From: Lathyrus oleraceus
Taxonomy: Eukaryota; Streptophyta; Magnoliopsida; Fabales; Fabaceae
Length of the DNA: 64,000 nt
Reading direction: 5' to 3'
Assembly (NCBI RefSeq): GCF_024323335.1
Contig: NC_066580.1
Span: 143,458,188 to 143,522,187 of the forward strand
Position numbers and translations under genes: made by a program. The notes beneath the pieces are model-generated. The model had not been told where the DNA came from. It was given only the letters and a program-made list of their open reading frames with translations, and searched no databases. The stretch's first letter is position 1, and each line of letters begins with the position of its first letter. Shown here piece after piece: positions 12,579 through 44,334 of this stretch.

Positions 12579-12586
12579 TATTTATA
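12579..12586 (-). promoter_or_regulatory. TATA box in E2 LTRs
   Basis: On the minus strand this reads TATAAATA. The same box occurs at 26540-26547 in the 5' LTR, which would drive the element. The distance to the LTR start (about 335 bp) fits a U3 promoter. Confidence 0.6.
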
Positions 12587-12648
12587 GTAGTGGTAATGGT
12601 GACCTAGTGGGCTTAAAATGAGGTCCAAAAATCTCAAACTTTCGCAAG

Positions 12649-12780
12649 CTTCGCTAGGCGAAGGAATTGCTCGCCTAGCGAGCAAACTAGGTCTGGGCTT
12701 TTTTGCTGGATCTGATGCTTCGCTGGGCGAGTGGCATGATGCAATGTTCGCTAGGCGAAGGAGCTGCTCGCCTAGCGAGC
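12649..12780. repeat. GC-rich dyads in E2 LTR, cluster 2
   Basis: Four dyads occur: CTTCGC-TAG-GCGAAG (12649-12663), GCTCGC-CTA-GCGAGC (12669-12683), TTCGC-TAG-GCGAA (12747-12759) and GCTCGC-CTA-GCGAGC (12766-12780). One imperfect copy lies near 12719. The two stem types differ by compensated base pairs. Confidence 0.9.
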
Positions 12781-12918
12781 CAGTTATTTTGGGCCGCCTG
12801 TGGATTGGGCCTGTTGTGAGTGGGCTTTTGTCCATTTGATATCAGTGCCTTGCAGAACAAGTCAGAGGGTCTTGGAAAATGCTTTGTAATATCAACGGGC
12901 AAATTTTGGGGTATGACA

Positions 12919-12930
12919 GCTGCCCCTGTT
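12919..12930 (-). promoter_or_regulatory. Polypurine tract of E2
   Basis: On the minus strand AACAGGGGCAGC directly precedes the 3' LTR. It shares AGGGGCA with E1 and E3. Confidence 0.85.
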
Positions 12931-13100
12931 CAATATTCTCGAACCGAGAGAGTAGAATGGCATATGCCGTTCGTGGTCTGGAGGTGAAAGATTATTGAAC
13001 ACTTAGAATGCCCCAAAAATTTGCACTTGTCCATTTGTCTTGACGGAGATGGGCTTAAAGATGCCATCCAAGAAACTTGCTGAGGAGATTTCCAGATTGT

Positions 13101-14500: not shown

Positions 14501-15527
14501 TACGCTAGACTACACCTCGGAATGTACCATATGCTAGGCAGTATCTGAGGGATATAGTTGAATCTTGAATGTAATTGATAAAGATGTCCGTCTGAATGGA
14601 CCTTTGTGTTGGTTGTATCAAGAGGATAATTAACCTGAAAAATAAAGTTAGCTTCATGCCATGTCATGATGCATGAGATGCAAATGTTGTATGCATGCAT
14701 GTGCTGTGAAGTGATGTAATGAGTGAATTAGGCGTCTGGAATGAATGCGAGCTTTGTATGCATGTATATGTTATGAAATGATGTAATGTATATGATGCGG
14801 AATGAAAATTGTATGTAGGTATGTGATGTGAAATGATGTAATGAATGCATTAGGCGTCTGAAACATTCTTCCAGGGGACACTACTGGGGAGATAGATCTC
14901 AGTCTGCTGGTCGGAGACATTGGTATTGATGGCCCTTCCTTAGCTGGGGATTCGGGTTCTGTCCAACGGGGCCTGGCTGGGGATAGAAGGGATGACCTTT
15001 CGGTAGGGCGATGCCGGCCTCTTCTGGGGAATAATTGGCGTGGCCGGGGAATCGAATTAGTAACAGCCTCCTTGGAAAGCGTGGTTAGACCTTCTCCTCG
15101 ATCCTGAAGTCGTGTAGTAATTGCTATTGCTATTTTAGGCATGCATTTTTGTAAACATGGGTCATATTCAAGTGCATAAGTCAATTCAAGTTAAATTAAT
15201 GGACGTTTACGCAAACAAAACAGAAAAGGTAAAAACAAAAGCATCTTTTTGGAAATGAAATTGTATTGATTTTGAAAGAGGGCCTATAAACAGGCAATTC
15301 GTGTACAAGGAGACAGAAATCCTAGTAAGAGGAAATTGTCAAGACAACAAAAAGAAAGCTATGCAGAATAAGTCCTATTGATTTTGATTCCACTACTGTC
15401 ATTATGTCTTCAAGCATCTCATCTCCTGCTGTCGGATAGAAGTGATTGGCTTGTTCAGTCCCTGGAACTTGGTTGAAGCTGGCAGAGAACGGGACATAGT
15501 CATACGCTTTAATCCCTAATTTTTGCC

Positions 15528-15699
15528 TGGACCGCCTTTTCAGGTTTTCTGTCCACCGGGATACCCCTTTTTGCCCAAGCCGCCTTTTCAGGTTTTCGAC
15601 TTGCCGGGTATACGTCTTTATATATTTATCCCTAACTTTTGCCCGAACCCTTTTGGTTCGCCGGGATGCCCTTACTTTTGCCTAGGTACGTCGACCTAG
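15528..15699 (-). repeat. Post-pol hairpin modules of E2 (four copies)
   Basis: Just after the pol stop lie four stem-loops, each followed on the sense strand by GGCAAAA. Their stems differ: TGGAC/GTCCA (15528-15555), CAAGYC/GRCTTG (15576-15603), CGAACC/GGTTCG (15644-15660) and CTAGGT/ACCTAG (15682-15699). The first two also contain an inner CCT-GAAA-AGG hairpin on the sense strand. E3 carries the same module at 36849-37057. Confidence 0.85.
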
Positions 15700-15709
15700 C
15701 GGGTCTCTT

Positions 15710-18700: not shown

Positions 18701-19181
18701 TTGAGGATAGGAAGTAACGGCTAGGAAACCGGCATTGAATTGTTTCATAACCTCGGCTTTGATTTTCTCAGACATTTCGGGACGCATGCGGCGAACCTTT
18801 TGCTTGACAGGACGGCAGCCTTCCTTCGTAGGCAGCCGATGCACCACTATATTAGTATCCAACCCAGGCATGTCTTCATAAGACCAGGCGAAAACCTCTA
18901 CATAGTCATGCAACATCCGAACCAATCTTTCCTTGACACTGCTTTCCAATCCTGCTCCTATTTTGACTTCTTTTCTGTCTACCTCAGTACCCAGATTTAC
19001 AATTTCGAGGGACTCTTCATGCGGCTGTATAGTCCTTTCCTCTTGCAGTAACAATCTGGCAAGCTCTCCAGGGACTTCACAATCTTCCTCACTTCCATCT
19101 TCGGCTTGGTAGATTGGATTTTCAAAGTCATAATGAACAGTAGCGGAATTATTATCAATAGGATCCAGAGTGAGTACGGAT
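15710..19181 (-). CDS. pol: E2 pol: RT, RNase H, archaeal-type RNase H, integrase (exon 2)
   Basis: This frame encodes the replication enzymes of E2. Numbered from a TTG at 19054, RT spans about 80-350 with YVDD at 235-238. A first RNase H (365-500) is degenerate, because the expected catalytic Asp region reads LTVLENSMG. A second RNase H (538-665) keeps D544, E582/E584, D606 and D656. Integrase has the HHCC zinc site ending C803-x2-C806 and the catalytic triad D835, D896 and E932. Paired RNase H domains are typical of the Tat clade. The frame stays open upstream of 19054 to 19181, where a TTGCAG acceptor lies, so translation is expected from a spliced fusion with Gag-protease. No stop interrupts this exon. 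The C terminus ends VKKYYA. Confidence 0.92.
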
Positions 19182-19416
19182 CTGCAATTTGTTACGTGAG
19201 TGTGTGTAAGAAAGCATAGCTTGTTTGAAAGACGACAGGAAAAAATAAAGAGCGCAACATTTGAATGCGAAAATGTCCATTGATTTATTGAATATGAAAA
19301 TATGCTTATGAAATGACAAAACCCTTAACAAATTAGCTATTGTGCCCCGGGTATAGACACGATGCTTTAAGAAGTTCAATTAGAATTTGCAATGCTAAAT
19401 AGACAATAACAATTAC
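19182..19416 (-). other. Predicted intron between protease and pol of E2
   Basis: On the minus strand a donor AGGA|GTAATT at 19416 and an acceptor TTGCAG| ending at 19182 bound 235 nt. Unspliced RNA stops at the TAA at 19415-19413, directly inside the donor. Removing the intron joins the codons in phase, giving SFSQE then SVLTLDPID, and the frame is open into RT. An alternatively spliced intron at this place is known for Ogre elements. The exact sites here are my inference. Confidence 0.75.
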
Positions 19417-22400
19417 TCCTGACTAAAGGAGATCGGGATAGTGTCTTCAGCCTTCCAATTATTGAGTCCGTCGCCAATTGTTGGGTAGATCCAACTATCC
19501 AGGTCGCAATCACTGTCAGCATCTTCTACAACATTGATTTGATCTTTGACCGTCTTCTGAGGGTTGAATCCCAGACCAGCTTTGTCAGACTTGTACGGTA
19601 CGTTGATCAGTTGACCCCAGCCAGTACAGCCACCATCTTCAACCACAGCTTGAGCATCTTTCAGAGAAATCATAGCAGGAGGAGCACGAGTAACCTTGGG
19701 CATACAGGGAGTTGGCTTAAGGACAGGATCGGGCGGGGAAACCACTTCAAATGACTGAGTTGGAGTCTCGAAGAATTCACCATCCATCTCAACGTATCTG
19801 AAGGTATGCACACTACTGACAATGTATTCTTCCTCCCCACACACAGTGACGATCTTGCCCTCTATTGGATACCTCAGCTTTTGATGGAGGGACGAAGCCA
19901 CGGCACCTGCCTCATGAATCCAAGGGCGCCCCAGTAGGCAGGAGTAGGCAGGTCGAATGTTCATTACATAAAAGGTAGTGTTGAAAACTTGAGGTCCTAT
20001 CTTGATAGGGAGAACAACTTCACCGTGGACAACACTCTTTGCACCATCGTAAGCCCGCACCACAATGTCACTAGGCTTCAGTTCAACGCTCTTGCAGTCA
20101 AGTTTCTCGAGCACGGTTTTTGGTAACACATTCAAAAAAGAGCCATTATCGATCAGCACATGAGACAGGGTGATCCCTTTACACTCAATGGAGATATGCA
20201 GAGCCTTATTATGGTCCTTTCCCGCTGGTGTCAGGTCAGCATTGGAAAAACCTAGGCCACCGTCGACAGTCAGATTAACAACATAATTTTCGAACTGATC
20301 GACGGAGGTCTCCTGAGGTACATGGGCAGTCTTCAGGAATTTTATCAAGGCATTGGCATGAGATTCAGAAGACAACAACAAGGACAACATCGAGATTTTG
20401 GAAGGAGTGTGCCCCAACTGCTCTACCACATCAAAATCACTCTTGCGGATGATTTTCAACACTTCTTCCATTTCTCGTTTGGCAACGTCTTCAGTAGTAT
20501 CTTCGACCGGTGTCTCTGACTGAGAAGGATTGACTGGTTCCTTTCTTCGAGTCTCAGAAGCTGGGGGTGAGATCTCTGGAGAGAAGATCCTTCCGCTTCG
20601 AGTAATTTTACTAGTCCCAACGATGTCATTAGGATTAGCAGAATCACCAACTTGCTTTACGCCATGGATATAAACCTCACCTCCATAATTCCACGGAATG
20701 GCCTTGCTTGAGGAGTACGGTATTGGGCCAGGTGCAGTAATGATCAGGGGAGCTACCTTGGGCTCAGCAATGATCTTCACAGGTACTCTGGGAGCGGTAA
20801 TCTTAACCGGAACTTTAGACCTTGCAATCATAGATATTTCTTCAATAGGGTTTTCCGTTTTAGAAACCCTTTCAAAGAGAATTGTACGGTCGTCCATCAA
20901 CCGTTGAATGCCATTTTTCAATTTCAAGCAGTCCTCGGGCCAAAGTGTGCAGAGATTGCAATCTTCAGTACAACCTGGAAATAAACCAGCTTGCAATAAA
21001 TTCCTCTTTATGATCGGGAGAGGAGACGTTAAGTCCGCTACAGTAGTAATGAGAGAATCGTCATTGAGAGCATTAACAGCCTTGTCATGATTAGGCATAG
21101 GTGCATTGATGACATTAGGAGTCTCCGGAGGCTCGAACTCAATTTCCCCAGCATCGATCATGTCCTGAATCTTATTCTTCAACAGCCAACAATCATTTGT
21201 ATCATGCCCGGGGCTATCGGAGTGATATGCACACCTGGCATTGGGATTATAACGAGGCGAAGCAGTGTTGACATTTGCAGGAGGACCTCTGAGAGTGATT
21301 AGGTTTACCTTCAGCATACTTTGCAGTGCTTGTGCTAAAGTCATATTGAGCTTGGTAAACTGCCTTCTTGGTCTGTCTTGTCTTTGCTGGAAGTTTTGAG
21401 CTGGCGGGGCTGCGATCGTCACTGCTCCGATGGCATGGTCACCGATTTTCTTATTATGATTCTTTTGACCATACACAGCATTCGATTCATTCTTCCCATG
21501 GTAGGACTTTTTACTGCTTGTAGAAGTAGCTGCCTGTAATTTTCCACTTCGAATGCCGCTCTCCACCCGTTCACCTGTCAGTATAAGTTCAGTGAAACCT
21601 GATGAAGAACTCCCCAGTAGGTGGCTGTAGAATGGGCCAGTCAGAGTACCCATGAACAGGTCTACTAATTCTCGGTCAGTCATAGGGGGTTTGACCCTGC
21701 CGGCCAAATCTCTCCATTTCTGAGCATACTCTTTGAAGCTTTCTTTAGATCCCATGGCCATATTCTGCAACTGTAGCCGAGTAGGTGCTAATTCAGAATT
21801 GTACTGGTACTGCTTGTAGAAAGCCGTTGCTAGATCAGTCCAGGTGCGGACGTCAGAGCTCTCGAGCTGATAATACCATTCCAACTGAGTGCCAGATAGA
21901 CTCTCTTGGAAGAAATGGATCCACAGTTTCTTATCAGTGGTATGCGGCTGGATCTTTCTCACATAAGCCCTTAGATGCATCTGAGGACAAGACGCACCAT
22001 CGTACTTATTGAAAGTGGGGATTTTGAATTTGCGAGGAATGGTCACGTCGGAGACCAGACCCAAACTTTCGAAATCCAGACCAGGTGTCTTCTGACCCTC
22101 CATGGCTAGCATGCGTTCTTCCAGCAATTTGTACTTATCATCTCTTGGAGAGTACTGTTCATTTTCATACTCCTCATCATCATCCTCAGGGTTAGAGAAA
22201 TCAACATTCTCCTCCTCTGAATCATTTTCCGCCCCCTATTCTGGGCCATTCGGGATTCCAAATTTGATTCCCGTAGCCTGTCCTTTACGCCTTCTGCCCG
22301 GGTTAATGAAGCTCACAGCTTTCTTGTCCTTCTTCTTTTCAGCCAAAAGAGCCTTCAGCTCCTCCTGACCCTTGGACAAGCTTAGCATCATCTCCTTGAA

Positions 22401-22448
22401 TTGAGCATTCTGAGTCTGGAGATCTTTGACAGTCTGTTCGAGATCCAT
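19413..22448 (-). pseudogene. gag-pro: E2 gag-protease with one in-frame TAG
   Basis: A 1012-codon frame runs from Met at 22448 to TAA at 19413, interrupted only by TAG at 22238-22236 after codon 70. The first 70 residues are a Gln/Lys-rich, probably coiled-coil leader (MDLEQTVKDLQ). After the stop the acidic linker and the retrotransposon Gag domain follow (LWIHFFQESL, EYAQKWRDLAGRV, ELVDLFMGTL). A zinc-knuckle-like C-H-H-C set (CAYHSDSPGHDTNDC) sits near residue 300 of the downstream part. The protease motif LIDNGSFLNVLP comes near residue 650; Asn after Asp is usual in this clade as far as I recall. Internal Met codons at about 22127 could start a shorter product. A single C-to-T change of CAG would explain the stop; readthrough cannot be excluded. 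Confidence 0.88.
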
Positions 22449-22637
22449 TTTTCTGTTTAAGAGGCAGACCGTGAGAATATGGTCCTTTAGAACACCTGTT
22501 ATGCAATGTTATGTTATGCGATGCAATGTATGAAATGTTTTCAAGGACTTTTGGAATTTAACTCTGCATAAATCCCCAACAAGAGGGAAATGTTTTATTG
22601 CTACTTTTTTTTTATCATAATAGTAAAAATACAAAGC

Positions 22638-23966
22638 TCAAGTCTCCCAGGGGCGACTTCTTTTCGGGCGAAGATATGCATTGAGTCTTCGTTCCTCATT
22701 AAGCTGACTGGTGAGCTCTAACACTTTCTTCCTTTCTGCATTGAACTGAGCTTCGAAAGTATCTCTCTCTTCTCTCAACTGGGTCCAGGATCTTTTCAAT
22801 TCCTCAACATCAGTAGGCATATCTGGATAAGGAATGATCTGGGAAGTAGCTCCTTCGGCCTCTGATTCAACAGTCAATGGTCCGACTGCAAGATATGGCA
22901 TGACAAGTTCGCGAGCTCTGGTGCGCACCCATCTGAGATAAGGCTCCATAGGAATAGAATTTTTCTTTCCTAAATTGCTTCTTTTCACCATGCCCCAAGC
23001 TCGTACAAACCTTTGGCGGAGACCTTGAGAGTCATTGTCATAGTCAAACACTGTACCTTGAATAATCATTTCATGTGGACCATCTCTTCGAGCATGCCCA
23101 AACTGACGTAGGGCTAAGGCAGGATTATAAGTAATACCTCCCCTTATCCCCAGGAGTGGTACATTAGGGAATTCTCCACAACGGTCGATGAGGGTGACGT
23201 TTTCTCTGAGATTGGAACACCAACGGATGTCTGAATGGGAGAGTGCCATTGTCCTTTGAGACCATTTCAGATTTCGATCATTCTTCAAGACTGATTGAGG
23301 GAGGTGCGAAATAAACCACCTAGACAACAAAGGTACGCAGCACATGAGAGTCCCTTGCCTCCTCATAGTACGAGTGTGAAGGGAATGCAAGACATCCCCA
23401 AGCAAGGTAGGCACAGGATTATGTGTGAGGAATATCTTAATAGCATTCACATCTATGAATTGGTCCGGATTAGGGAATAGCACCAAACCATAGATTAGCA
23501 ATGCTAAAACATCTTCAAAAGCATGGACATTCACAACTTTTAGGAATTCTCGGGCCTTACTTATCAGAAATTTGGCAAGTAAACCTTTCGTTCCACTCCT
23601 TGTTACCCAATTGGTCTCAATGTCAGATTTTGTCATGCATAAAGCTGCGGCAACTTCTTCAGACTTTGGCATCTTTTCTAAACCACTGAAAGGTATTTGG
23701 TCCAGGATAGGTATCCCGAGCAGCTGGGAGAATTCTTCTAATGTGGGTACCAACTGATAATCTGGGAAAGTGAAGCAATGATGTTTAGGATCGAAGAACT
23801 GGAATAGGACTCTCATCATATCTTCCTTGAAACCAGTGGTAACTAAGTTGAGAAGATGACCATGTTTCTTGTTTAACTGAGCATGATCGGGAAGTTCTAA
23901 CACCAAATCCTTGAGTTGAGGAGAGATCGTTACAAGATTGATCCGGATAGTCTTCCTGGAAGCCAT
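22638..23966 (-). CDS. E2 ORF1, Ogre-specific protein of unknown function
   Basis: An intact 442-aa frame lies between the 5' leader and gag, in the place of the extra ORF1 that defines Ogre elements. The Met at 23966 is the first in frame and I see no upstream coding. The body has WCSN, LPQSVLKN and GIRGGITYNPALALRQFG strings common to this family and looks like a globular domain. The tail (about 375-425) is Glu/Arg-rich with heptad spacing, probably a coiled coil. The end is basic (RPKRSRPWET). Its role is not known. A distant relation to plant mobile-domain proteins is possible, but I cannot test it here. The spacer to gag is about 190 nt. Confidence 0.85.
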   Translation of the reverse strand: MASRKTIRINLVTISPQLKDLVLELPDHAQLNKKHGHLLNLVTTGFKEDMMRVLFQFFDPKHHCFTFPDYQLVPTLEEFSQLLGIPILDQIPFSGLEKMPKSEEVAAALCMTKSDIETNWVTRSGTKGLLAKFLISKAREFLKVVNVHAFEDVLALLIYGLVLFPNPDQFIDVNAIKIFLTHNPVPTLLGDVLHSLHTRTMRRQGTLMCCVPLLSRWFISHLPQSVLKNDRNLKWSQRTMALSHSDIRWCSNLRENVTLIDRCGEFPNVPLLGIRGGITYNPALALRQFGHARRDGPHEMIIQGTVFDYDNDSQGLRQRFVRAWGMVKRSNLGKKNSIPMEPYLRWVRTRARELVMPYLAVGPLTVESEAEGATSQIIPYPDMPTDVEELKRSWTQLREERDTFEAQFNAERKKVLELTSQLNEERRLNAYLRPKRSRPWET

Positions 23967-24017
23967 AACCTGTTTAACAGAGCAAAGCTAAATTCCTAAG
24001 TCCTTGAAATGGTTAGT

Positions 24018-24103
24018 ATGATGATGCTATGATGTTACGATGTTACGATGTTACGATGTTATGATGTTATGATGTTATGATGTTATGATGTTATGATGTT
24101 ATG
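24018..24103 (+). repeat. 9-bp minisatellite in E2 5' leader
   Basis: About nine copies of GATGTTAYG-type units occur, changing from TTACGATG to TTATGATG from left to right. It lies between ORF1 and the primer site. Confidence 0.9.
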
Positions 24104-24682
24104 TAAGCACAAACATGTCACACAACAATCATTCCTAGGTTTTAGGGCTTGCATGAGTTCCACAGGTAAGTACCCCCCCCCCACTGAAGTTTGGTTGGTT
24201 CAACCTGTCCTAGAATAGTAACCGGGTTCTAGAAGGATCTCAAATCATCGACCTTTCCTTAAGTCCACTTCAGTGCAACACCAAGTGGTTGACCGAAGCT
24301 TCCCTAAAGTCCAATCTCAAAGAGTGTAGTATCGAGTATCAACCAACCTCAGTCGGAACCGAAGCCAGTTATCTCACTACTTTCTAAAGGCTAGGATGAG
24401 TCAATTAGGGTTCTAAAGGTTTGGTTAATGCTTTGATGACACCACGCGGAAGCCAAATTTTTCCTCAAGTGAACATGAGGAACATCAGGACGACCAAAGT
24501 GCCACATTAACCGTAGCCATCATTTTGACCATTCCAGTATACGCCGGATAGTCGCGATGATCTATTGCTACTTACCTAAGGTACACTAGATCCGGGTGTA
24601 GGATCTTTCACTCAGACAATCCCTTAAAACGAAAGAACAAATTCAAACATAAATGATTTTTAAGGTGGACCTCTCTTTATTA
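24104..24682 (-). mobile_element. 5' leader of E2
   Basis: About 580 bases of untranslated sequence lie between the primer site and the minisatellite. A C-run of about eleven bases is at 24173-24183. I see no gene. It probably holds packaging and dimerisation signals, as in other LTR retrotransposons, but none can be identified. Confidence 0.7.
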
Positions 24683-24700
24683 TCCCCAGCAGAGTCGCCA
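24683..24700 (-). promoter_or_regulatory. Primer binding site of E2
   Basis: On the minus strand TGGCGACTCTGCTGGGGA begins four bases after the 5' LTR end. Ogre elements are described as using an arginine tRNA primer and this sequence fits that class. E3 has the same site with one base changed (44335-44352). Confidence 0.9.
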
Positions 24701-24704
24701 GTTC

Positions 24705-26879
24705 TGTCATACGGTGAACTGGACCTTATTGGATATGTAATCGCAATGTCGCGGTTAGCAAGAGTCGCCACCGACTTTTCTTTTATCCCGTAAGGAAAGG
24801 TGGAAAAGAACAGGAAAGACCTTAATTTTAAATTCTTAGGTTCGGGAGGTACTTTATACAAAGGGAAGGTATTAGCACCCTTTGTATCCATGGTTATCCA
24901 TGGGCTCTTAATTGCTCAATCATTTATGTTTTTCTTGTTTAAAAAAAGTGGTTGAGAAATGTATGAAAAATGTTTTGAAAACGAGAATTTAACTTTGTAA
25001 TGATTCTTGCATGAATGTATACAAAGTGGTTATCTCGTATAGTTTTTTTGAAAGTAGTTTAGAAAAATATAACTCGGCAATGATCCTAGTACGGATGTAT
25101 GCTAAGTGGTGATTTTCTAAAAAAGGATGTTTGAAAGGTGTGAGGTGTGAAAAGGATTTTTTTATGAATGAGCAATTAAGGTTACACCTGTCCGAGGTCT
25201 TTCCGAGCATTTCCTATCCTTATGAGGGTAAAACTGTCCTTACTATTGAGAAGTAAGTAGTTTTATCCTGGGGATGTAGAAGGGTCATCGTAGGGTCATC
25301 GATTGGTCATTGAAGGCAACAGTTGTGAGGATACCTTAGCATTCGAAGGGACTATCATCATTTAACCGTAGGCTACACCGAAGGGTCATCGAGGGACAAA
25401 ATCGTATTTTCGAAGGCAACATCCGAGGGACTATGATTTATTTTATGATGATTTAATCGAAGGGCCATTGCTAAGTGTATCCCCACATTCGCGGGACACG
25501 ACCGTGATATCGAAATTGTGGGGTAATACAGAGAGGTCCGATATCGTTTATTTAAAGTCCATGTTTTAAGTTCATTAGGTAATTATGGTGGTACCGCCTT
25601 AAATCGATACATTAAAATCAACACATTAAGGATCACTACATTGAAATTAATTAGGCAATCAATATGAATCTTCACATTAAAGTGAAACAATTTAGAATCC
25701 ATCTCCATGAAAGCTTCCCATGCATAAAGCGGAGTACCTAGCCGGCTATTTCTTCGGAAGTATGCTAGCCTTTACACCATGAACACACGGATTAAAGCAT
25801 CGAGATAAAATATAATTGGAAATTGCACCATAAGATAAATATAACAGCCAGGAATTTAAGCCAAATAATGCAGAATCATCATTAGGTAAACATAAAATGG
25901 GCAGCAAGAAGGCAAAGCAGCCCCTGGCCCGGTCGCCTCTGCTTCGCCTAGCGAAGGCTCAGCGAAGGCTCGCTGCGGGCTCGCCTAGCGAGGAGCTAGC
26001 GAGCGGCCACGGGTTTGAAATTTGAGAACATTAGGACCTCAACCTGCAGCATGGCTTATGGCATCCAACACATAATTAGATGGTTCAGTTTCACAATATT
26101 CAAGCACATTTAAATTCTCATGCAAAACTCCAAAATATTTATGAATTCAATTATAATATCCTCCACGAATTAAGAACATGAAGTGATACCATATGCCAAG
26201 TGAGAGTACAAAACGATATCACATGCAAATTAAGACACTAAAGTGGTACCACATGCAAAATAAGGACACAAAGTGATAATCATATGCCAATTAAGAAACT
26301 AAAGCGATAATAGTGAGGCAAACCTGTTTGCAAATCGAGTTGCAACCTTGAATTGGCGAGCCGGATTGAGTTGGGCGACGGTAGCTTCGGAGCGGGTAAG
26401 CGGCCTTCAGGGTTTCCGCCTTCTGAACTCTTTGGACCAGCAGGGTTTCGGTGCTAGGGTTTTCTCGGGATCTCTGTGTGAGTGTCTTCGGGTGAGTGAG
26501 TCCGTCTCTGTGTGTTCTTTTTCGTGGCAGAGGAGCATGTATTTATAGTAGTGGTAATGGTGACCTAGTGGGCTTAAAATGAGGTCCAAAAATCTCAAAC
26601 TTTCGCAAGCTTCGCTAGGCGAAGGAATTGCTCGCCTAGCGAGCAAACTAGGTCTGGGCTTTTTTGCTGGATCTGATGCTTCGCTGGGCGAGTGGCATGA
26701 TGCAATGTTCGCTAGGCGAAGGAGCTGCTCGCCTAGCGAGCCAGTTATTTTGGGCCGCCTGTGGATTGGGCCTGTTGTGAGTGGGCTTTTGTCCATTTGA
26801 TATCAGTGCCTTGCAGAACAAGTCAGAGGGTCTTGGAAAATGCTTTGTAATATCAACGGGCAAATTTTGGGGTATGACA
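24705..26879 (-). mobile_element. 5' LTR of E2 (2175 bp)
   Basis: The same sequence as 10744-12918, shifted by 13961 bp, with three visible base differences. On the minus strand it ends CCGTATGACA next to the primer site. Its promoter would transcribe leftward. It carries the same dyads and a PBS-like TGGCGACTC at 24762-24770. Confidence 0.95.
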
Positions 26880-32179: not shown

Positions 32180-33218
32180 TGTTGGTGTAAGCCCTAGAGG
32201 CCAATACTTTTGGTACTTGTATCGAATTATTTATTAATAATAAAAGGCTTTTTCTTTATTATGTTTGTTTAATAAAGTCCCTAGAATAGCTAGTTCGTTT
32301 AATGTATCAAGTGTGACTTAATCATGAGATCACATTAAACATAAGGACATTATTCTTAAAGTATCCGTCGTCGAGCTTTATTGTGAAGTGGGATAACATT
32401 AAAGCATTAAGACTATTATGTATATAGACTGATGATCACATCTTATGGATCATGGATAAGGAGTTATCAAGTCTTAAACATAGGTATGAATATTAAGAGT
32501 AATATTTATACTGGATTGACCCACTATGAGAATACTATATAGAATGTTATGCAAAGTGTCATAAGTTATTCTCATGGTGATAATGGTGTATACCACCCTT
32601 CGACCTGAAACCACTATGGACCTTAGATTTAGAGTCGAGTGCCTTATTGCTGATCAAACATTGTCCGTAACTGGATGACCATAAAGACAGTTGATGGATA
32701 CTCCACGAAGCATGCTAAGGGACATGAGTGGCCTAAATGGAATTTGCCCATCCTGCGTAACAGGATAAATGCCTATGGGCCCAATATTGAATTGGACAAG
32801 GATGACACGGTATATGCCTTGTGTTCAATATAGACATAAGGGAAAAAGGTTAATTGTACACATAAGTATTATCACAAAAGGATTTTTCATATCACATGAC
32901 ATTTTCAGGTCTTGGGTAACAGTGATGTGTTGCTAGATACCGCTCACTGTTTATTATGTTAAATACGTGATTTAATATGATTGGCAATGCCGCGAAAACC
33001 TACAGGGTCACACACAAAAGGACGGATTGATGAGAGATAGAGTAACTAAGGAATACTGTAATGTACGGTGCCCTTAAGTGAATTGTAGAACATCGTAAGG
33101 TACGGTGTACTTAAGTAGAATACGAAATATGGTAAGGTACCACGCGCTTAAGTGATTTTTGCATATTATAAGATATGGGCCACATACACTTGAGTGGGCT
33201 TTTTAGCTTGCAGCCCAC
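32180..33218 (+). mobile_element. LTR fragment cut by E3
   Basis: It starts TGTTGGTGTAAGCCC and has no coding frames. Repeated GTAAGGTACGGTG...CTTAAGTG phrases occur near 33060-33170. The sequence stops where the E3 LTR begins, so E3 probably inserted into it. The family is uncertain; I lean to copia. Confidence 0.5.
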
Positions 33219-36200
33219 TGTAAGACCCTAATTTTGACCCTAAGATCCCTCATGGCATCATGTGATTGCGCAAATGCATTGCCTCAAGGATCATAGCATG
33301 ATTGGTTCCTTAACCCTAGGGTTGGGACTTGTGTGAGTGTTTTGAGATCACCAAGCATGCTTGTATTGTATATTATTACTTTTCTTATTTGATTACTAAC
33401 CAAAAGCACAAAAATATGTCACTAACTCTTTTTGTTTTGAAGCTCAAGTGATCATGTGCTCCAATGCTCCTAAGAGGCTCCTAAGCCCAATACAATGGCT
33501 AGATGAAGATGAGGAAAAGCATGAAAATGGTACACAAATCTCCTAATCATCATATATGTCTCCCAAATATCTCAATTTTCCAATTTGATCAAGATAACCC
33601 AAAGGGCCTGAGGATTGTTTCCCAAGGAAACCCTAACTCCATTATGCTTTGAATGAGCCTTGTCCATGAAGCAACCTCAACCTATGATAAAATTTAATCA
33701 ATGTAAGTTATTTTATTCATCATTTTATGCATATATGAGCCTATTTTAGGATCCTCAATCATTTATTCATCAAGATTGGAAGTTTGGCCTTGAAAAGTTG
33801 ACCAGTCAAGTCATCTGACTAAGCTGAGCACCATTGAGATATAACTTTTGATGTGTTTGTAAAATGAAGATGACCCCAAGATAAAATATGTTCTTACGAA
33901 CCATATGCACAACTTTAATGTTCATAAAAAATCCATTTGAAACTTTTAAGGTCATCATTCATTTAAAAACATTATAGGTTATTTTGATCGAAACCCTAAT
34001 TTTGGGTTAACTTACCAAGGGTAGAACTTCCTTAATTTTTATGATTTTTGGGTGCAAACAAATGCATTGGAAATCTTGATATGTCTACTTCAATTTTTAT
34101 GTTGTACAAAATTTCATAATCCTAAAATAGATACATGTGATAATACAAAACATTATAGGTCATATTGGACCTAATTCATTGAACTTGAAAAACTATCCAA
34201 CTTCAAATGCCCATAACTTTGTCATAGAAAATCCAAATGATGCAAAATTTGAGTCTACATTGATCATCATGAAAAGATATACAACTTTTATATTGGAGGT
34301 TTTTCCATTTGAAGCTTGCATCATGAAAACAGAGGGGTTTGATTGAGCTTACTTTTGGTGAAATTTTTCAAATGTGACTTAAACATGTTTTGTGCGTGGA
34401 TTTTCACAGCCAGCTTTCATCAATTTCCAAATGCCAAATTAATTTTTTCCTAACATAACTTTTGTTCCTTATTTCAAGGGCTTTCCAACCATTACTCACA
34501 ATGCTCTTTTGGACTTACCATTTGGGAGTTTCGAAGACCTTTCCATTCATGTGCATTTTGGTATTTCATGTTATAACTTGGTATGCAAGTTGATTCCACT
34601 TCATGTACACGTCCAAATCCATTCCATATGAACTCAGCAAGATGTTTCACTCATCATTGGGCCTCACACGCGCCTATACAGGCCCATGCATCCAATTTCA
34701 ATTTGCCATGCACACATGAGAAGTGTGGTCATTTGAGACTTTCAGCTATAAATAGAGTTTCCCTCTCATTCATTCATCAACCTTTTGGAGATCTGAATTG
34801 CTGCAACATTGAAACCATAGCCATACCAAAGGAATTTCTTCAAAAAATTTCTCACTTTCGAGCTTGAAATTCAGCATCATTAGCTGATCTTCAAAGCTTA
34901 ATTCCTTAGCCTTTCACTTCCACTGCATCCCTATAGCAAAGAGGAGCCAAGATCTTGAAGAAATCGTGGCCTGAAGTGATCCAATTCAGAGGTATACATT
35001 CAAACTTTTTGGATCTAGAACTCTCAATCCAATGTAGTATCCTTGTGTTTGTGTGTTTTTCTGAAGTCCTCACACTTGAGGCAAGCCAATGGTGGTTTCA
35101 ATTTTCCATTTCGTGCACTTTCAGTTTGAACACCATGATCTTCCACTTCACATTTCTCTCAATATAGGAAGAGTGAGGAAGATCCATGGATACAGTGGTG
35201 ATCTCCATCACACGAGCTTCATTTCCATGTCCTTACTTTCCATTTTTGTTAAACATTTTTTCTCTGCAACTGGTGGCTGGATTCTGTTGGCTCGCCGGAG
35301 AAGACGGTGGTTTCCACCACCACCACAACGTGTCTTGTCTCCTGGCCCTTGGATCACCTTGCCACGTTTTAATCTTGATCCTCCATTGTGTTTACTTGTT
35401 TTAATTCATAATGTTGCGTGTTTGACTCAAGTGCACGTTGCGCCCTCAGATCTGGACAGTCCATTGATGCCACGTTAATTAATGAGGTGCATCACGCGAT
35501 TGTGGTTTTTTCCATTTAATTCATTTTCTTTTATTTTCAGTTAATTCATTTGATTTTCAAAAATTCATTAAAAAATTATTTGAAGTCATAAAAATATGAG
35601 ACCAATTCCAAAAAAATTCTTGAAAAATCTAATTTCATATTTTGATTTTTAATTATTTTTGTGACTTCATTTAATATTTTTTGTGAATTATTTGGTTTTT
35701 AATAGTTTTAATTCATTTTAAAATACTTTCTGACTTTTTAAAAATCCAAAAATATTTTCTTAGCATTTATGGATCATGATAAATCAATGAAAAATAGTCT
35801 CATCAAATTCTTATTTGATTTGAGATTTATTTGAGATTTTAATCCATTTTGTGTTATTTTCAATTGTTTTTAAATACTTTCTGGTTTCAAAAATTTGTGA
35901 AAAAATTAGTCAAAGTTTGTTTGACTATGTTGAACCTATGAGAATTTAATTGGACTTTTTAAAGTTGATTTGAATTGAACTTGAGGTTTGACCTTATTTG
36001 ATTATTTTTTATTTGCATTTTATTTTAATTCAAAAATACCAAAAAAAATATTGTTGACTTGTTGACTTGTAATCTTCATTTCTTTTCTGTTTAGTGTTGA
36101 TTGATGTTGGTTTGATCCATATTTGGTCAATTGGAATTGATTGATATATTCTTTTCCCCTCCCTTTCATCTTCATCCCATTATTTCCATCAATGGCCAAT

Positions 36201-36420: not shown

Positions 36421-36449
36421 TGTTATTTGCATATATTTATATTGACCGA

Positions 36450-36827: not shown

Positions 36828-36848
36828 AAATAAAAACAGAATAGCTTG

Positions 36849-36940
36849 CTAATTTGAAAACCCGAAAGGGCGGTTTAGGCAAAAAATGAGTGTCTCGGTG
36901 GATTGAAAACCCGAAAGGGCGATCGAGGCAAAAGTTAGAG

Positions 36941-37023
<83 letters not shown>

Positions 37024-37057
37024 GCTAGATTGAGTACCTCACCCTTGGGAAATCTAG
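36849..37057 (+). repeat. Post-pol hairpin modules of E3 (three copies)
   Basis: Three stem-loops follow the pol stop. The first has CTAATTTG/CGGTTTAG arms (36849-36878) with seven of eight pairs. The second has GATTG/CGATC arms (36901-36924). The third has CTAGATT/AATCTAG arms (37025-37057). The first two enclose CCC-GAAA-GGG. Each 3' arm is followed by GGCAAAA, as in E2. An AT microsatellite has expanded between the second and third. Confidence 0.85.
36941..37020 (+). repeat. AT microsatellite
   Basis: About 80 bases of AT repeat with one C. The length may be uncertain in the assembly. Confidence 0.95.
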
Positions 37058-40000
37058 GCAAAAATTAGGGATTTGGCAAGTAATTGCATCCTGACAAGAC
37101 TTTGTTCAACTGTTGTCTATCAAAGATTCTCACTCAGTCATCGTCAACTGAAGCTTCAAATACAGTGGATTCAGAGTTGGTGGAGAAACGGTCATTATGT
37201 TCAATGTAGCCCTTTTTTCCATGAATATCACTAATTTCAAATTTGTAAAGATCCATGGAGTCTCGCCATTTGCAGACTACCATTCTCTTAAATAAATTTG
37301 AGTCTTTATCCAATCCTTGGCACTCTTATTTGTTTCTGTTTAACAAATGTTTGCATGTTTTTAATTGATAAATATCATTGTTTTAAACAAATAAAGTTTT
37401 CATAATCAAACTGTTTTAAACAAAATGAACATTCACAATGACTAGAAGGATAAGCGAAATGTCCTGAGTGCTTTCCCAAAGATAGCATGATTAACAAAAG
37501 GTAAGACATTTATTCATATTCTGGCATTCTTATATCCTCTTCATCAGCTTTCAGTTGTCTCCCCATCGAGCGCAGAAAGAATAGTACATCATCAGCTTCC
37601 CAGAGGGTCTGGTCTGAGAAGTTCTCTCTGATGGCAGTAGATTGATCTGTCTTATTAGATTTCTTTCTCCTAGCAGAGTTTGTGGATGTTCATCCAACGC
37701 ATTCCCGGATAGTTTGTTTATGCATACATCTTTGTTTCCCCCGCTGAGTCTCAGCAATCCATGATTGGTTTTATGGTTGATCTGTGGATGATCCCTTCGG
37801 TTGCAGTTCTTGCCTTGATCTTCTAGAGACGTGTATCCCTCTATATCTGGCACTAGAATTTGTGTTTTTGTCAATTATATGGTTGTCGTCCCTTGTGTGG
37901 ACTGACCTAAAATCCCTTATGGATTGATAAAAATTGATATGCTATCTACTCACGAGGAAGTTTGTCTTTCCCCATTATGAGTAGAAGTTCCCAGCAGAGT
38001 AAGCGTTGGTTCCCTGCAGAGATATCTTTCTAGATATTTGTCTCCTCGGCCGGAATTTTCCTATAGCAATTGGTGAAGGGATTGTCTCCCTTTTCATCCC
38101 CGGCATGTCGTTTGTTGACGAAGGATTCATTCCCAATTTCCTCCGCCAGGGTAGTTCCTTTGAGAACATTTGCAGCTTATCCCCAGTAGATTTGCCTGAT
38201 CCGAGTTTGATGATTGGTGTCTTTTCTGGGTCTAAATATTTCTTCTAGCATTGAGAGATGATGTTGAATATGCATATTTCCTTCCCCAGTGTAGCAAAGT
38301 GCTATTTCTCCCCTTAGCAGATTTTCCTCTCCAACAGATAGAAGGGAGTGTTTTGATTGATGTGCATCTGGTTGGTGGTTGTTCCCCATGGAGTCTCACA
38401 TCATTCCTTGATAAAGTTCCCCAGTAGATTTTCTTCTCCGACGGATCTTATTGTTATTTGACCACCTATCCCCGAGAGAATTAATGGAATCTCCCAGACA
38501 GATCTTTTGCGTCTTCCTTATGTCAGGATTGTTCGCCCTTGGAAGACTCCTCCTGTGCAGGGTGTTGTTTCTCGCGGTTGGAAGCTGTGACTTTGCCTTT
38601 CCCCAGCTGTGGTCGATGTCTTCCCGTGTTTATTCTTCTTCCAGAGATAATCCCCACCAGAGTTGAGTTCTCTGTTTGGTTATCTTCTTTCGCTACTCCT
38701 CAATACATCTTCTTTGTATCCTCAACGAGTGTAGCTTTGGGATAGGGTTTGATATCCCCGATGATTTATTTTCATCATGCTCGGGTTGTTCCCAGAGTTG
38801 AGCTCTCCAGTAGGGTTCTCCCTTCTTGTTGAGACGCTATGTCGGGTGCCCACTCTTGATTCTCAGACTTGTTTGGGTTAGATATGTCTGTTTGTCAGCA
38901 TTGATCATACTCAAATCATGCATATACATGCATAATCATAGCATTCAAATATTCATGTAGCATTCTTTGCCATATATCCTTGTTTGTTATCTCCTGTTAT
39001 TGGTGAAATATTATTCCCCGAGCAGATGGATGTGTCTGATCTCTCCATATAGAGTCAGCCCCATAGGCAGAAAGTGTTTATCTTTCCTTCTTTATTCCCC
39101 ACTGAGATATGTCTTCATGGATGATTATTGTTTCAGTTTTCTCCCCAGTTGTGTATCGGGATGGAATTACCCCCCTGAGTTATATCCTCATTGGGTTGAG
39201 TCTTGTTTGATTGTGTCTTTCTAGTTTGTTCCTAGATTGACTTTCCTTTCTTGTTATCCCCTGCATTTTCCCTGTGTTTCAGTTGTTCAATTGCTCAGTA
39301 ACCAGTAATTGTTCATCTTTTTTCCCCCAGCGGATCTTGTGGCCTTCTACCCAGTAACTGGTGGTTGTAAGTCCTATTTATATGGTTTTCTACCCAGTAA
39401 CCGGTAGATGTAATCCCCTCTTTGTTGGTTATCTTTACCCAGTAACCGGAATTGATATTCCTTCATTTTTTTAGTATACCACCTAGTAACTGGTGATATA
39501 TCTCCTGGATAATTGTTTTTGTCAGGCAATTTATCCCTTGCGAGTCATATTTCATTTACCCTTGTTTGGTAATGATTGTTTCTCCTTCTGATTGGTCATC
39601 ATTTTATACCCAGTAACCGGTATCCCGATGTCCTTTTCTTTTCGGTCGATTTATCCTTCATTAACCCAGTAACCGGTTGTGGATAATCTTCTATGCGAGT
39701 ATGTTATCTACGATATGACGGTAATAGATAATATGTCTCATGCGCTCTTCAGTTGAAGTCTTTTTCTTCCCCAGTCGAGTAAGATTCGTATTTCCTTGTG
39801 GAATCGAATGTTCATCCTGTAAGTCGAGTTTGCTTTTTCAGCCCTCCTTTCGGATGCTTAGTGTCTTGGATATGTTCCCAATTCACGCCTGGTTGGTCAC
39901 CTATTATATGCTCAGTAACCGGTATCCCTGGTGTTCCTTCCTTCTGCTCCCTATTATGACTTTTTGTCCCCTGTGGAGTCAGACTTTCCTGAGTTGAGAT

Positions 40001-40626
40001 GTGCTTTTTTTGGTCCTCCTCAGATGTTTCGGACAATTGATATCTTTCACCCTTATACCGGTCTTAGATATTCCTTCTCCTTGAGCGTGTTGTTCTCTCA
40101 CCCAGTGACCGGTGTTTTGATAACATGTCTCTCTTTGAGTTTATTACCCAGTAACCAGTAATATCTCGTTGTTTCTTTCTCAACTGAGTCCTTTGTGGAC
40201 ATCCCCGTCTGAGTTTGGATTTTTATCCGATGTATCAAATATGGATAGTTTTGCTGGATTGGTGTATTCTCCAATACGTGCATCTTTGCGTCAGCTCGAG
40301 TCCTTCCATCGATTTATTTTCGTGGAATCCCTTCGTGTCTCTCAGCAAGTTTTCAAGTCGTGACCTGCTCACGCATTTTTACCTTATTTCCCCCCAGAGT
40401 CTCTGTCTCCCTAGTGAGTGTGTTACTCCTATGGATTTTTCAGTTTCTCCTGATTTCTTTTCATTTGTGGCAATTATCCACCATGAAGATTTTATTTTTA
40501 CATACATACATTCGCATCATGAGGTCTCTTAGGGACCAAAATTCGTCTCTTTGTTATTATTTAAGCCCATTCTATCTCGTCGAGATGAAGATTTTAACCT
40601 TCATATCTCCGGCTAGAATGACCTTA
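37058..40626 (+). mobile_element. 3' UTR of E3
   Basis: About 3.6 kb of pyrimidine-rich, non-coding sequence. Many degenerate TTCCC-AGYAGA-type modules are spread over 37550-40400 (for example TCCCAGCAGAGT at 37989-38000). Between 39288 and 40163 they alternate with a hairpin array whose loop is CAGTAACY. Several short open frames exist on both strands, but none shows protein-like composition. The stretch ends in a polypurine tract. Confidence 0.8.
39288..40163 (+). repeat. Hairpin array of E3, loop CAGTAACY
   Basis: Nine or more hairpins share the 8-base loop CAGTAACC or a one-base variant, but have different stems. They are CAATTGCT/AGTAATTG (39288-39311), CTACC/GGTGG (39347-39364), CTACC/GGTAG (39390-39407) and TATA-c-CACC/GGTG-a-TATA (39475-39500). 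The rest are ATACC/GGTAT (39606-39623), TAACC/GGTTG (39662-39679), ATGCT/GGTAT (39908-39925), CACC/GGTG (40099-40114) and TATTAC/GTAATA (40142-40163). Copies near 39435 and 40050 are imperfect. Spacing is irregular (about 40-240 bp), so this is not a simple tandem repeat. Confidence 0.9.
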
Positions 40627-40638
40627 AATAGGGGCATC
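40627..40638 (+). promoter_or_regulatory. Polypurine tract of E3
   Basis: AATAGGGGCATC precedes the right LTR and shares the AGGGGCA core with E1 and E2. Confidence 0.8.
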
Positions 40639-43600
40639 TGTAAGACCCTAATTTTGACCCTAAGATCCCTCATGGCATCATGTGATTGCACAAGTGCATT
40701 GCCTCAAGGATCATAGCATGATTGGCTCCTTAACCCTAGGGTTGGGACTTGTGTGAGTGTTTTGAGATCACCAAGCATGCTTGTATTGTATATTATTACT
40801 TTTCTTATTTGATTACTAACCAAAAGCACAAAAATATGTCACTAACTCTTTTTGTTTTGAAGCTCAAGTGATCATGTGCTCCAATGCTCCTAAGAGGCTC
40901 CTAAGCCCAATACAATGGCTAGATGAAGATGAGGAAAAGCATGAAATGGTCCACAAATCTCCTAATCATCATATATGTCTCCCAAATATCTCAATTTTCC
41001 AATTTGATCAAGATAACCCAAAGGGCCTGAGGATTGTTTCCCAAGGAAACCCTAACTCCACTATGCTTTGACTGTGCCTTGTCCATGAAGCAACCTTAAC
41101 CTATGATAAAATTTAATCAAGGGAAGTTCTTTAATTCATCATTTTATGCATATATGAGCCTATTTGAGGATCCTCAATCATTTATTCATCAAGATTGGAA
41201 GTTTGGCCTTGAAAAGTTGACCAGTCAAGTCATCTGACTAAGCTAAGCACCATTGAGATATAACTTTTGATGTGTTTGTCAAATGAAGATGACCCCAAGA
41301 TAAAATGTGTTCTTAAGAACCATATGAACAACTTTCATGTTCATAAAAAATCCATTTGAAACTTGGAAGATCATCATTGATTTCAAAACATTATAGGTTA
41401 TTTTGACTAAAACCCTAATTTTGGGTCAACTTACCAAGGGCATAACTTCCTTAATTTTTATGATTTTTGGGTGAGAACAAATGCATTGGAAATCTTGATA
41501 TGTCTACTTCAAATTTTAAGTTGGACAAAATTACATAATCCTAAAATAAATACATGTGATAATACAAAACATTATAGGTCATATTGGACCTAATTCATTG
41601 AATTTGAAAAAGTACCCAACTTCAAATGCCCATAACTTTGTCATAGAAAACCCAAATGATTCAAAATTTGAGTCTAAATTGATCATATTGAAAAGATATA
41701 CAACATTTATGTTGGATGTTTTTGAATTTGAAGCTTGCATCATGAAAACATAAGGGTTTGATTGAGCTTACTTTTGGTGAAATTTTTCAAATGTGACTTA
41801 AACATGTTTTGTGCTTGGATTTTCACAGCCAGTTTTCATCAATTTCCAAATTCCAAATTAATTTTTTCCCAACATGACTTTTGTTCCTTATTTCAATGGA
41901 TTTCCAACCATTACTCACAATGCTCTTTTGGACTTACCATTTGGGAGTTTAGAAGACCTTTCCATTCATGTGCATTTTTGTATTTCATGTTATAACTTGG
42001 TATGCAAGTTGATTCCACTTCATGTTCACGTCCAAATACATTCCATATGAACTCAACAAGATGCTTCACTCATCATTGGGCCTCACACGCGCATGTACAG
42101 GCCCATGCATCCAATTTCAATTTGCCATGCACACATGAGAAGTGTGATCATTTGAGACTTTCAGCTATAACTAGAGCTTCCCTCTCATTCATTCATCAAG
42201 CTTTTGGAGATCTGAATTGCTGCAGCATTGAAACCATGGCCATACCAAAGGAATTTCTTCAAAAAATTTCTCACTTTCGAGCTTGAAATTCAGCATCATT
42301 AACTGATCTTCAAAGCTTAATTCCTTAGCCTTTCACTTCCACTGCATCCCTAGAGCAAAGAGGAGCCAAGATCTTGAAGAAATCGTGGTCTGAAGTGATC
42401 CAATTCAGAGGTATACATTCAAACTTTTTGGATCTAGAACTCTCAATTCAATGTAGTATCCTTGTGTTTGTGTGTTTTTCTGAAGTCCTCACACTTGAGG
42501 CAAGCCAATGGTGGTTTCAATTTTCCATTTCGTGCACTTTCAGTTTGAACACCATGATCTTCCACTTCACATTTCTCTCAATATAGGAAGAGTGAGGAAG
42601 ATCCATGGATACATTGGTGATCTCCATCACACGAGCTTCATTTCCATGTCCTTACTTTCCATTTTTGTTAAACTTTTTTTCTCTGCAACTGGTGGCCGGA
42701 TTCTGTTGGCTCGCCGGAGAAGACGGTGGTTTCCACCACCACCACAACGTGTCTTGTGTCCTGGCCCTTGGATCACCTTGCTACGTTTTAATCCTAATCC
42801 TCCATTATGTTTACTTATTTTAATTCATAATGTTGCACGTTTGACTCAAGTGCACACTGCGCCCTCAGATCTGGACAGTCCATTGATGCCACGTCAATTA
42901 ATGAGGTGCATCACGTGGCTGTGGTTTTGTGTTTGTTTTGTGTGTGAACCAAATGCAAAAAGGAGAAAGGACTTAGAATTAGGACTTACCTATCCTTAAA
43001 GGAGTTCAAGAGCAACTAGGCCTCATGCCTTTAGAATGCTAAATTTGTTTAAGAGCAACTAGGCCTCATGCCTTTAGAATGCTAAATTTGTTCAAGAGCA
43101 ACTAGGCCTCATGCCTTTAGAATGCTAAATTTCAAAGTTGATCTCAAAGGACTTCTCCATCAAACCTATTCTTTGTCCATTCCCCTTATTGTGTTGTGAA
43201 CTTTTTGATGTTTGCTTTTGTGTGATAGGGATCCCACCTTGAGATTGTAAAAAGAGGACAATTGTCATGAATAGCCAAGTTAAGAGACAAGCCAAGTGGA
43301 GATCCTAGGAGCTTGAATTCAAATTGTGTGATTGCTTATTTGTGTGTGCTAAGTCCCAAAGGAAAGGAGCATCTTTAGTCATCTCTATGACTTCAAGAAA
43401 AGGAACTCAAAGGGTTTATCTTTTCCCTCTTATCTTTGTATGCTTTAGGACTAGCCCTTCTCTTCTTCTCCCCACTCTAACCAAGCCAAAATCATTTTTC
43501 TAAACTTTGACTTTATTTCAAATTAGAAACCTATGCCTTAAGCCTTTGAATTTTCAAAAACTATCTTCATTAATACTCATTGTGAATAAACCTTAATCCA

Positions 43601-44328: not shown

Positions 44329-44334
44329 AAAAAG

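Follow-up and report, generated by a model that had tools for sequence, protein, structure and literature searches.

Can an array of hairpins keep one loop while the stems that present it are free to change, and if so, in which molecule would it be kept, and for what? The question is raised by the 3' untranslated region (3' UTR) of E3, one of three Ogre-type long terminal repeat (LTR) retrotransposons (E1, E2 and E3) in a stretch of 64,000 nucleotides (nt) of Lathyrus oleraceus DNA (C2:143458188-143522187; hereafter, "the window"). A sequence-only reading of this stretch had reported nine hairpins that share the 8-base loop CAGTAACY on different but still complementary stems. Our analysis indicates that this observation is real and larger than first reported; the case for selected stem-loops is strong, RNA is likely, and a protein partner is a proposal. 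The interpretation that we put forward, with a probability of roughly 0.4, is that each of the three Ogre-type elements carries 3'-UTR stem-loops with a family-specific loop and covarying stems, selected probably as RNA, whose loop is predicted to be bound by Gag for packaging.

Loop and stems in the E3 array

The array (39288-40163) holds 11 hairpins, all in the sense orientation: 10 with CAGTAACY or a one-base variant of it (TAGTAACT at 39484, CAGTGACC at 40103) and 1 with CTTATACC. The nine hairpins described earlier thus lie where they were placed, but their number becomes ten motif copies and a degenerate eleventh; every stem that had been listed was found. The core ACC[loop]GGT is common to the copies, and pairing beyond it uses different letters in each. 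Several hairpins are built in two tiers, an inner stem of about 3-6 base pairs (bp) being separated from an outer one by a small internal loop (e.g., 40039-40072 and 40083-40131); the hairpins are often longer than had been reported. The statement that odd pairs are all G-U did not hold: at positions i = 0-4 of the ten copies we counted 5 G-U, 2 C-A (39484, 40149), 1 A-A (39440) and 2 T-T (39440, 40103), and the copy at 39440 (c4) has an inner stem of just 2 bp in this element. The constant loop is missing from other hairpins of the stretch (39542, 39695).

The motif is concentrated in this array. CAGTAACY has 10 matches in the window (3.0 expected; none of 100 shuffles reached 10), of which 8 are in the E3 array on the plus strand; the remaining two, both CAGTAACT, are on the minus strand at 5413 and 9527, and one of them is a weak match to a covariance model (E value 2.9). 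Allowing up to 3 mismatches, ACCCAGTAACCGGT has 11 matches (1.9 expected), 10 in the E3 array, all on the plus strand. The covariance model, built from the eleven E3 hairpins, recovers every one of them with an E value of 0.0011 or lower, without any other match under 2.9 in the window.

Permutation was used to ask how far pairing depends on which arms stand together. At outward positions 4-8, 28 of 50 cells were Watson-Crick in the native arrangement, against an average of 15.8 (standard deviation (sd) 3.0) once the ten copies had exchanged their 3' arms at random (0 of 20,000 permutations). Folding energies under such arm swaps, for 11 copies and arms of 10 to 25 nt, gave no sense-strand match to the native value in 100,000 permutations; with 20-nt arms, the native energy was -96.5 vs. 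-46.8 kcal/mol (sd 8.0) on the sense strand and -83.2 vs. -45.5 kcal/mol (sd 6.6) on the antisense strand (0 of 100,000 each). Covariation, scored by pair count in alignment A1, was 0.382 vs. 0.203 (sd 0.038) in shuffled data (0 of 500), with 0.220 as the best of six slid registers, and cells altered on both sides numbered 14 vs. 6.1 (0 of 500). All of these permutation controls model the relatedness of the copies only in part. Local folding with pairs at most 70 nt apart yielded z scores of -5.30 (sense) and -4.09 (antisense), the former being the most extreme of 32 hand-picked region-strands, and 36-nt pieces adopted the expected hairpin in 9 of 11 cases on the sense strand and 8 of 11 on the antisense strand.

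These data bear on the notion that the array is a decayed tandem duplication of a sequence motif (a coding repeat such as YPVTG, or a DNA-binding site), with complementarity as a by-product. Copies c2 and c3, and likewise c6 and c8, do have common flanks, and by eye some loop changes are silent in one frame. However, pairing extends past the common core and is lost on arm swap (unless this is an artefact of relatedness), stop codons occur in the E2 loops (by eye), and stems differ between families; we consider this explanation hardly credible. Its coding version was rejected: of the 9 spacings between the ten copies, 7 would shift the reading frame, and the arm swaps also speak against YPVTG repeats.

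Pairwise identity among the ten copies was 0.906 in the loop (0.825 once c9 is included), 0.353 at arm positions 3-7 and 0.365 in the spacers. In E3, then, the loop is kept; the outer stem has diverged no less than the spacers and nevertheless pairs. The corresponding values (loop, arm, spacers) were 0.924, 0.511 and 0.279 in E1 and 0.75, 0.526 and 0.28 in E2, where the contrast is weaker. The central claim of the sequence-only reading, that loop and pairing are kept while stem sequence is free, is upheld in E3, and it was replicated with three further loops. The interpretation offered there is supported in part: action as RNA is likely, and a Gag/packaging, export or 3'-end role is a proposal.

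Relatives of the array, and arrays with other loops

A first look at the host genome gave 8,302 candidates for the E3 hairpin stretch, of which 40 were scored: the window itself and 39 at 89-95% identity. Three CAGTAACY motifs at array spacing were matched 2,759 times genome-wide, compared with 198 times for the reversed pattern. Some odd arms are private to the E3 copy, as c4, c8 and c11 differ from most relatives (Table 1; arm letters were read at loci with sense on the plus strand).

Stem changes that go uncompensated in related elements had been named as grounds for dropping the idea of a selected structure, and we looked for them in c1. A c1 pattern with three free letters per side has 2,127 genome matches (reversed control, 3); among the first 100 listed, 72 read GCT/AGT and 28 are variants. 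Six of these variants are compensated on both sides (GTT/AAT in 3, ACC/GGT in 2, ATC/GAT in 1), eight convert a wobble to a Watson-Crick pair (ACT/AGT in 6, GCT/AGC in 2), one creates a new G-U, and the other 13 have at least one broken position, owing to A-C in six of them. Compensated and uncompensated changes thus both occur, and broken variants are expected in dead copies.

More distant relatives were also found. The diverged subfamily at locus L147 aligns to the E3 3' UTR over only about 700 bases (77-92%) and has eight such hairpins. At L215, either CTTATACC or a tetraloop (TTCG or CTCG) is the loop of hairpins that match E3 c11 and c8 by eye. Upstream of the polypurine tract at this locus, hairpins resembling c8 by eye have the 8-nt loop swapped for a TTCG or CTCG tetraloop closed by C-G; the C-G-closed TTCG is a classic stable RNA tetraloop. 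The replaced loops of L215 show that a hairpin can outlive its loop.

Constant-loop arrays are not peculiar to E3: both other Ogre-type elements have a 3'-UTR array of their own, and the three arrays comprise about 10 to 23 hairpins each. This recurrence of the design in E1 and E2 had been missed by the sequence-only reading. In E2, 12 of the 23 hairpins occur one per unit of a 64-bp tandem array (13382-14160). A strict search for E2 hairpins on both strands of the whole window returned 17 matches, all in the E2 3' UTR and all sense. For arm swaps, one of the twelve tandem copies was kept, leaving 12 distinct hairpins of the 23; depending on arm length, 0-8 of 100,000 permutations matched the native energy on the sense strand and 0-12 of 100,000 on the antisense strand. 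Genome-wide, an E2 pattern with outer stem and loop fixed and six free letters per side has 28,943 matches (reversed control, 0). We read the first 100 listed, all from the start of C1. Their four inner pairs amount to 362 Watson-Crick, 33 G-U, 3 A-C and 2 other cells of 400 (395 of 400 pair). Reduced to 17 distinct arm pairs, the count is 51 Watson-Crick, 12 G-U, 3 A-C and 2 other of 68, against a permutation mean of 35.5 Watson-Crick (p = 0.00015).

In E1, the 22 occurrences of the loop gave 86 paired cells of 88 (76 Watson-Crick and 10 G-U); with 10 distinct arms of 5 nt, arm swaps equalled the native energy in 56 of 50,000 permutations on the sense strand and 5,847 of 50,000 on the antisense strand. 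A further loop, ATTCAG, was found at locus L212, where it forms a 6-nt loop in 24 of 24 occurrences with 95 of 96 cells paired; the arm swap here (7 distinct arms, 5 nt) gave 478 of 50,000 (sense) and 991 of 50,000 (antisense).

To gauge how common such arrays are, we sampled 3' ends through a pattern spanning the polypurine tract and LTR, AGGGGCANCTGTNANACCC, which has 45,845 genome matches (reversed control, 0). The first 100 junctions listed include at least five types (CATACCC, AAGACCC after CATCTG or CAGCTG, AACACCC, AATACCC). Seven of the first 12 listed 3' ends have a loop type by motif count: five of E2 type, L213 (four YAGTAACY, two of them paired) and L212. In the same 12, the 1.48 kb upstream of the tract had z below -3 in 9 cases on each strand, and the LTR side in none on either strand. 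No extreme folding energy was seen upstream of the tract in L209 (E2-type) and L207. By eye, pol-like sequence at L207, an Ogre-type 3' end, seems to run nearly to the polypurine tract, and a deletion may have removed the 3' UTR and its hairpins. Of two de novo hairpin detectors, the first failed to distinguish E2 and E3 from shuffled sequence. The second scored, for at least one loop length, above all ten shuffles in E1, in E2, in E3 and in 7 of the 12 polypurine-tract loci, with no clear excess in L207, L208, L214, L217 and L218.

Tandem arrays were surveyed at 61 loci, after 9 overlapping ones of 70 had been left out. At least 0.7 loop-motif hairpin per unit was present in 34 of 51 tandem arrays, with about one per unit of 43-64 bp, two per 100 bp and about three to four per 141-145 bp. 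Six of the remaining 17 arrays were folded. In four 65-bp arrays the hairpins present TGGTATAC or TAGTATAC as their loop, and another hairpin is formed around TTCGGACA (whose end letters can pair), the 51-bp array in L147 has one hairpin with a 10-nt loop, and a 30-bp array has no such hairpin. Among those Ogre-type elements of this genome that we examined, hairpin arrays are, in sum, common.

Could stems covary without selection? A mutational process, reverse-transcriptase template switching within hairpins, is known for inverted repeats; it would perfect palindromes with no need of a function, and a number of the array hairpins do lack the constant loop. Yet such a process would not keep the loop, whose identity exceeds that of the arms in E3 and E1 and, less sharply, in E2. 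It would also close the internal loop, whereas the two positions after the inner stem are unpaired in 100 and 97 of the 100 E2-pattern matches, and single-step intermediates exist among the c1 variants. We therefore judge this process very unlikely, and selection on the stem-loops very likely.

RNA, DNA and a candidate protein partner

The orientation of the hairpins is strongly biased. Among oriented loci the motif is sense in 207 cases and antisense in 1 (E3 relatives), and in 355 and 44 cases, respectively, for E2 relatives; in the tandem-array survey, 753 paired loop motifs are sense and 25 antisense. In strict sets, G-U outnumbers A-C by 33 to 3 (E2-type), and sense wobble outnumbers complement wobble by 10 to 1 (E1). 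Folded as DNA, seven stretches reached just -1.4 to -4.6 kcal/mol, and in two the expected hairpin was absent (one of which cut through a hairpin). These last two results also stand against the idea that the hairpins work in single-stranded DNA, namely the minus-strand cDNA made in reverse transcription, where they might, for instance, mark points of pausing or strand transfer close to the polypurine tract. That alternative draws on the dominance of Watson-Crick pairs, on the ability of both strands to fold and on the larger data sets, in which G-U and A-C are even; we hold it to be distinctly unlikely. Despite that evenness, the sense wobble of the strict sets and the weak DNA folding favour RNA, and the folded form is likely, though not certain, to be RNA in the genomic transcript.

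Which partner might read such an RNA? What is observed is a set of arrays with a kept loop, free but complementary stems, sense orientation, two-tier stems and hairpins multiplied in tandem units. A loop-binding protein would select just such an arrangement, one loop repeated many times on stems that are free to vary, and we propose that the loop is read by a protein. The natural candidate would be Gag instead of a host factor, as within one host each of these Ogre families has a loop of its own. The loops would then be handles through which the element's own Gag recognises genomic RNA, the bound RNA would be gathered for packaging, and the tandem repeats of these 3' UTRs would be multiplied binding sites; each family would have its own loop because it would recognise its own RNA. 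Judged from sequence, this packaging role is possible but tentative. An extension of it, a family-specific loop code in which each family would have tens of copies of one loop on varying stems and Gag would pick its own RNA among many co-expressed families, with selection for more copies driving the tandem repeats that give rise to plant satellites, seems doubtful.

The structural evidence fits equally well with selected RNA stem-loops bound by a host factor that would serve export of unspliced RNA, translation control, stability or 3'-end formation instead of packaging. The constitutive export elements of some retroviruses have a similar 3'-UTR position, and Ogre RNA is reportedly partly spliced. 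On the other hand, the presence of different loops (CAGTAACY, TARYRKAY, AGCCWGA, ATTCAG) in one genome is easier to understand with a partner that differs between families. A host factor is conceivable, if somewhat improbable.

A number of results weigh against the interpretation of selected, Gag-bound RNA. Many known packaging signals are at the 5' end, whereas the hairpins here cluster in the 3' UTR, and loop loss was seen in E3 c9 and in L215. The evidence for RNA is not uniform: with distinct arms of the larger sets (i = 0-3), G-U and A-C numbered 21 vs. 24 (E3 relatives) and 43 vs. 45 (E2 relatives), arm classes seen in at least four loci gave 2:2 and 5:3 cells, and the c1 variants contain 6 new A-C for 1 new G-U. 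Antisense folds are as stable as sense ones in E2 and the 12 listed 3' ends, and the arm swap in L147 was stronger on the antisense strand (32-1,182 of 100,000, vs. 1,560-10,226 of 100,000 sense, by arm length). Folding itself is modest. Single E3 hairpins reach only -4.9 to -8.3 kcal/mol as RNA (36-nt pieces), in local context the second pair has a probability of 50% or more in 7 of 10 copies on the sense strand and 5 of 10 on the antisense strand, and 120-nt windows (14) do not single out the E3 region (mean z -0.85 sense, -1.23 antisense). E1 (z -1.3) and L212 (z -0.9) are clear arrays without extreme folding energy. As for the E2 pattern, 58 of the first 100 matches have one stem, GATC/GATC, and the count of 28,943 demands an exact outer stem and loop, which biases it to well-kept copies.

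One close parallel lies in viruses. In MS2 and other single-stranded RNA viruses, dispersed packaging signals are described, in passages of PMC6281560, as many stem-loops around a common recognition motif that are said to act jointly in assembly. The arrays resemble them in having multiple stem-loops with a common loop motif. They differ in belonging to a plant LTR retrotransposon, in being grouped in its 3' UTR, frequently as tandem units, and in having a loop that changes from family to family; their protein partner is a proposed one. Nor are they spread along the genome: loop hairpins in the window are confined to 3' UTRs, and elsewhere there are two minus-strand CAGTAACT.

The hypervariable 3'-UTR tandem repeats of Ogre and the PisTR-A satellite occupy the same place in the same kind of element, and in passages of PMC9659126 satellites are reported to arise from these repeats, which are treated there as DNA repeats. 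Among the literature matches listed for Ogre and plant LTR retrotransposon topics (titles and abstract starts), no report of Ogre hairpins, a constant loop or covarying stems was found, and "hairpin" was not found in PMC7004042.

Retand is a lineage close to Ogre. Antisense open reading frames (ORFs) and repeats are reported for its POL-3'LTR region in parts of PMC11963269, where the 3' tandem repeats of Retand elements and comparable structures are described as being of unknown origin and function; "hairpin", "stem" and "secondary structure" have no occurrence in the main text of that paper. The finding that many repeat units are built of hairpins with constant loop and variable stem gives these 3' repeats a testable role, offers a possible cis-signal for a plant LTR retrotransposon, and suggests a possible reason for the recurrent birth of new satellites there. 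Ogre-type elements have been estimated at 20-33% of the pea genome (passages of PMC2206039).

Rfam gave no match at threshold (gathering score) in 33200-42930, and five ORF pieces from the E3 3' UTR had no Pfam match. Viral and bacterial/archaeal contigs scanned with the motif yielded, among the loci looked at, chance matches or unrelated repeats only, and a pol query of viral contigs found no match. Several bacterial contigs from several phyla (L127, L130, L131, L132, L134, L135) have tandem heptamers, (AACCRGT)n, that incidentally contain CAGTAACCGGT. The iron-responsive element has the loop CAGUGN, and the c10 loop begins CAGUGA; this candidate was rejected, as the loop here is 8 nt, there is no bulged C, and 1 of 11 copies fits.

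The retrotransposons of the window

The Ogre-type label rests on domains and primer-binding site for E2, and on pol related to that of E2 for E1 and E3. E2 (10743..26879, minus strand) has LTRs at 10743-12918 and 24704-26879 that are 99.9% identical. On the minus strand, its Pfam domains follow the order DUF7745 (1.7e-120), Retrotrans_gag, RVT_1, RNase H and rve, with an aspartyl protease match only under the cut-off; DUF7745 marks Ogre ORF1. The layout is that of Ogre-type elements: an extra ORF ahead of gag, then gag-protease and reverse transcriptase-RNase H-integrase. A tRNA-Arg primer-binding site, TGGCGACTCTGCTGGGGA, follows the 5' LTR at 24683-24700 (minus), with the letters of the Ogre site. 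The Ogre primer-binding site is complementary to tRNA-Arg according to passages of PMC2206039.

E3, on the plus strand, is less complete, with an LTR pair (33218-35509 and 40638-42928) of 95.9% identity. Its integrase-frame ORF ends at 36827. The integrase end, which shares 66% identity with E2 across 62 residues, is the sole recognised part among E3 ORFs of at least 60 amino acids. E1 enters from the left, and its pol lies outside the window, on that side. The 5 kb left of the window contain a 688-codon open frame on the plus strand, and five pieces of this flank have 74-83% DNA identity to E2 gag-pol and the start of the E2 3' UTR, also on the plus strand; the E1 3' UTR therefore extends into the window. 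The pol sequences of E1 and E3 are thus related to that of E2, as in Ogre-type elements.

Table 1. Coordinates of hairpins, arrays and E3 parts in the window (loops in brackets).
Feature	Position	Strand	Remark
E1 array, AGCCWGA (7 nt)	329..1215	+	E1 3' UTR; 22 occurrences (342-1201), 21 flanked by at least 3 pairs
E2 array, 23 hairpins, 8-nt loop TARYRKAY, at least 3 pairs	13086..14554	-	
E3 left LTR copy	33218..35509	+	95.9% to 40638-42928; truncated, no primer-binding site after it
E3 3' UTR, integrase-like frame end to LTR	36828..40637	+	3.8 kb
c1 CAATTGCT[CAGTAACC]AGTAATTG, 8 bp	39288..39311	+	
c2 CTACC[CAGTAACT]GGTGG	39347..39364	+	relatives mostly GGTAG
c3 TCTACC[CAGTAACC]GGTAGA	39389..39408	+	
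c4 constant loop, weak inner stem (GGAA here), outer TATC/GATA	39430..39457	+	GGTA in 5/7 relatives
c5 GTATACCACC[TAGTAACT]GGTGATATAT, one C-A mismatch	39474..39501	+	
Hairpin without constant loop, ACC[CTTGTTT]GGT, long outer stem	39542..39584	+	
c6 ATACC[CAGTAACC]GGTAT	39606..39623	+	
c7 TAACC[CAGTAACC]GGTTG	39662..39679	+	
c8 ATGCT[CAGTAACC]GGTAT, two G-U	39908..39925	+	GCC in 10/12 relatives
c9 altered loop CTTATACC (40052-40059), inner ACC/GGT, outer GATATCT/AGATATT	40039..40072	+	loop also in relative L215
c10 CACC[CAGTGACC]GGTG, long outer stem	40083..40131	+	
c11 TATTACC[CAGTAACC]AGTAATA, innermost C-A here	40142..40163	+	GGTAATA in 4/6 relatives
E3 right LTR (aligned part)	40638..42928	+	LTR alignment; primer-binding site downstream at 44335

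A fourth LTR element, at 55445-63983, has LTRs of 98.3% identity and frames with Pfam Transposase_32 and aspartyl protease matches; used as a negative control, it had no folding excess in its 3' part (z +0.65). Downstream of the E3 right LTR there is a primer-binding site at 44335-44352; the LTR thus appears to be shared between the E3 3' UTR and the next internal region. Around that site (44000-44911), a folding excess was found on the plus strand only (z -4.65 vs. -0.66).

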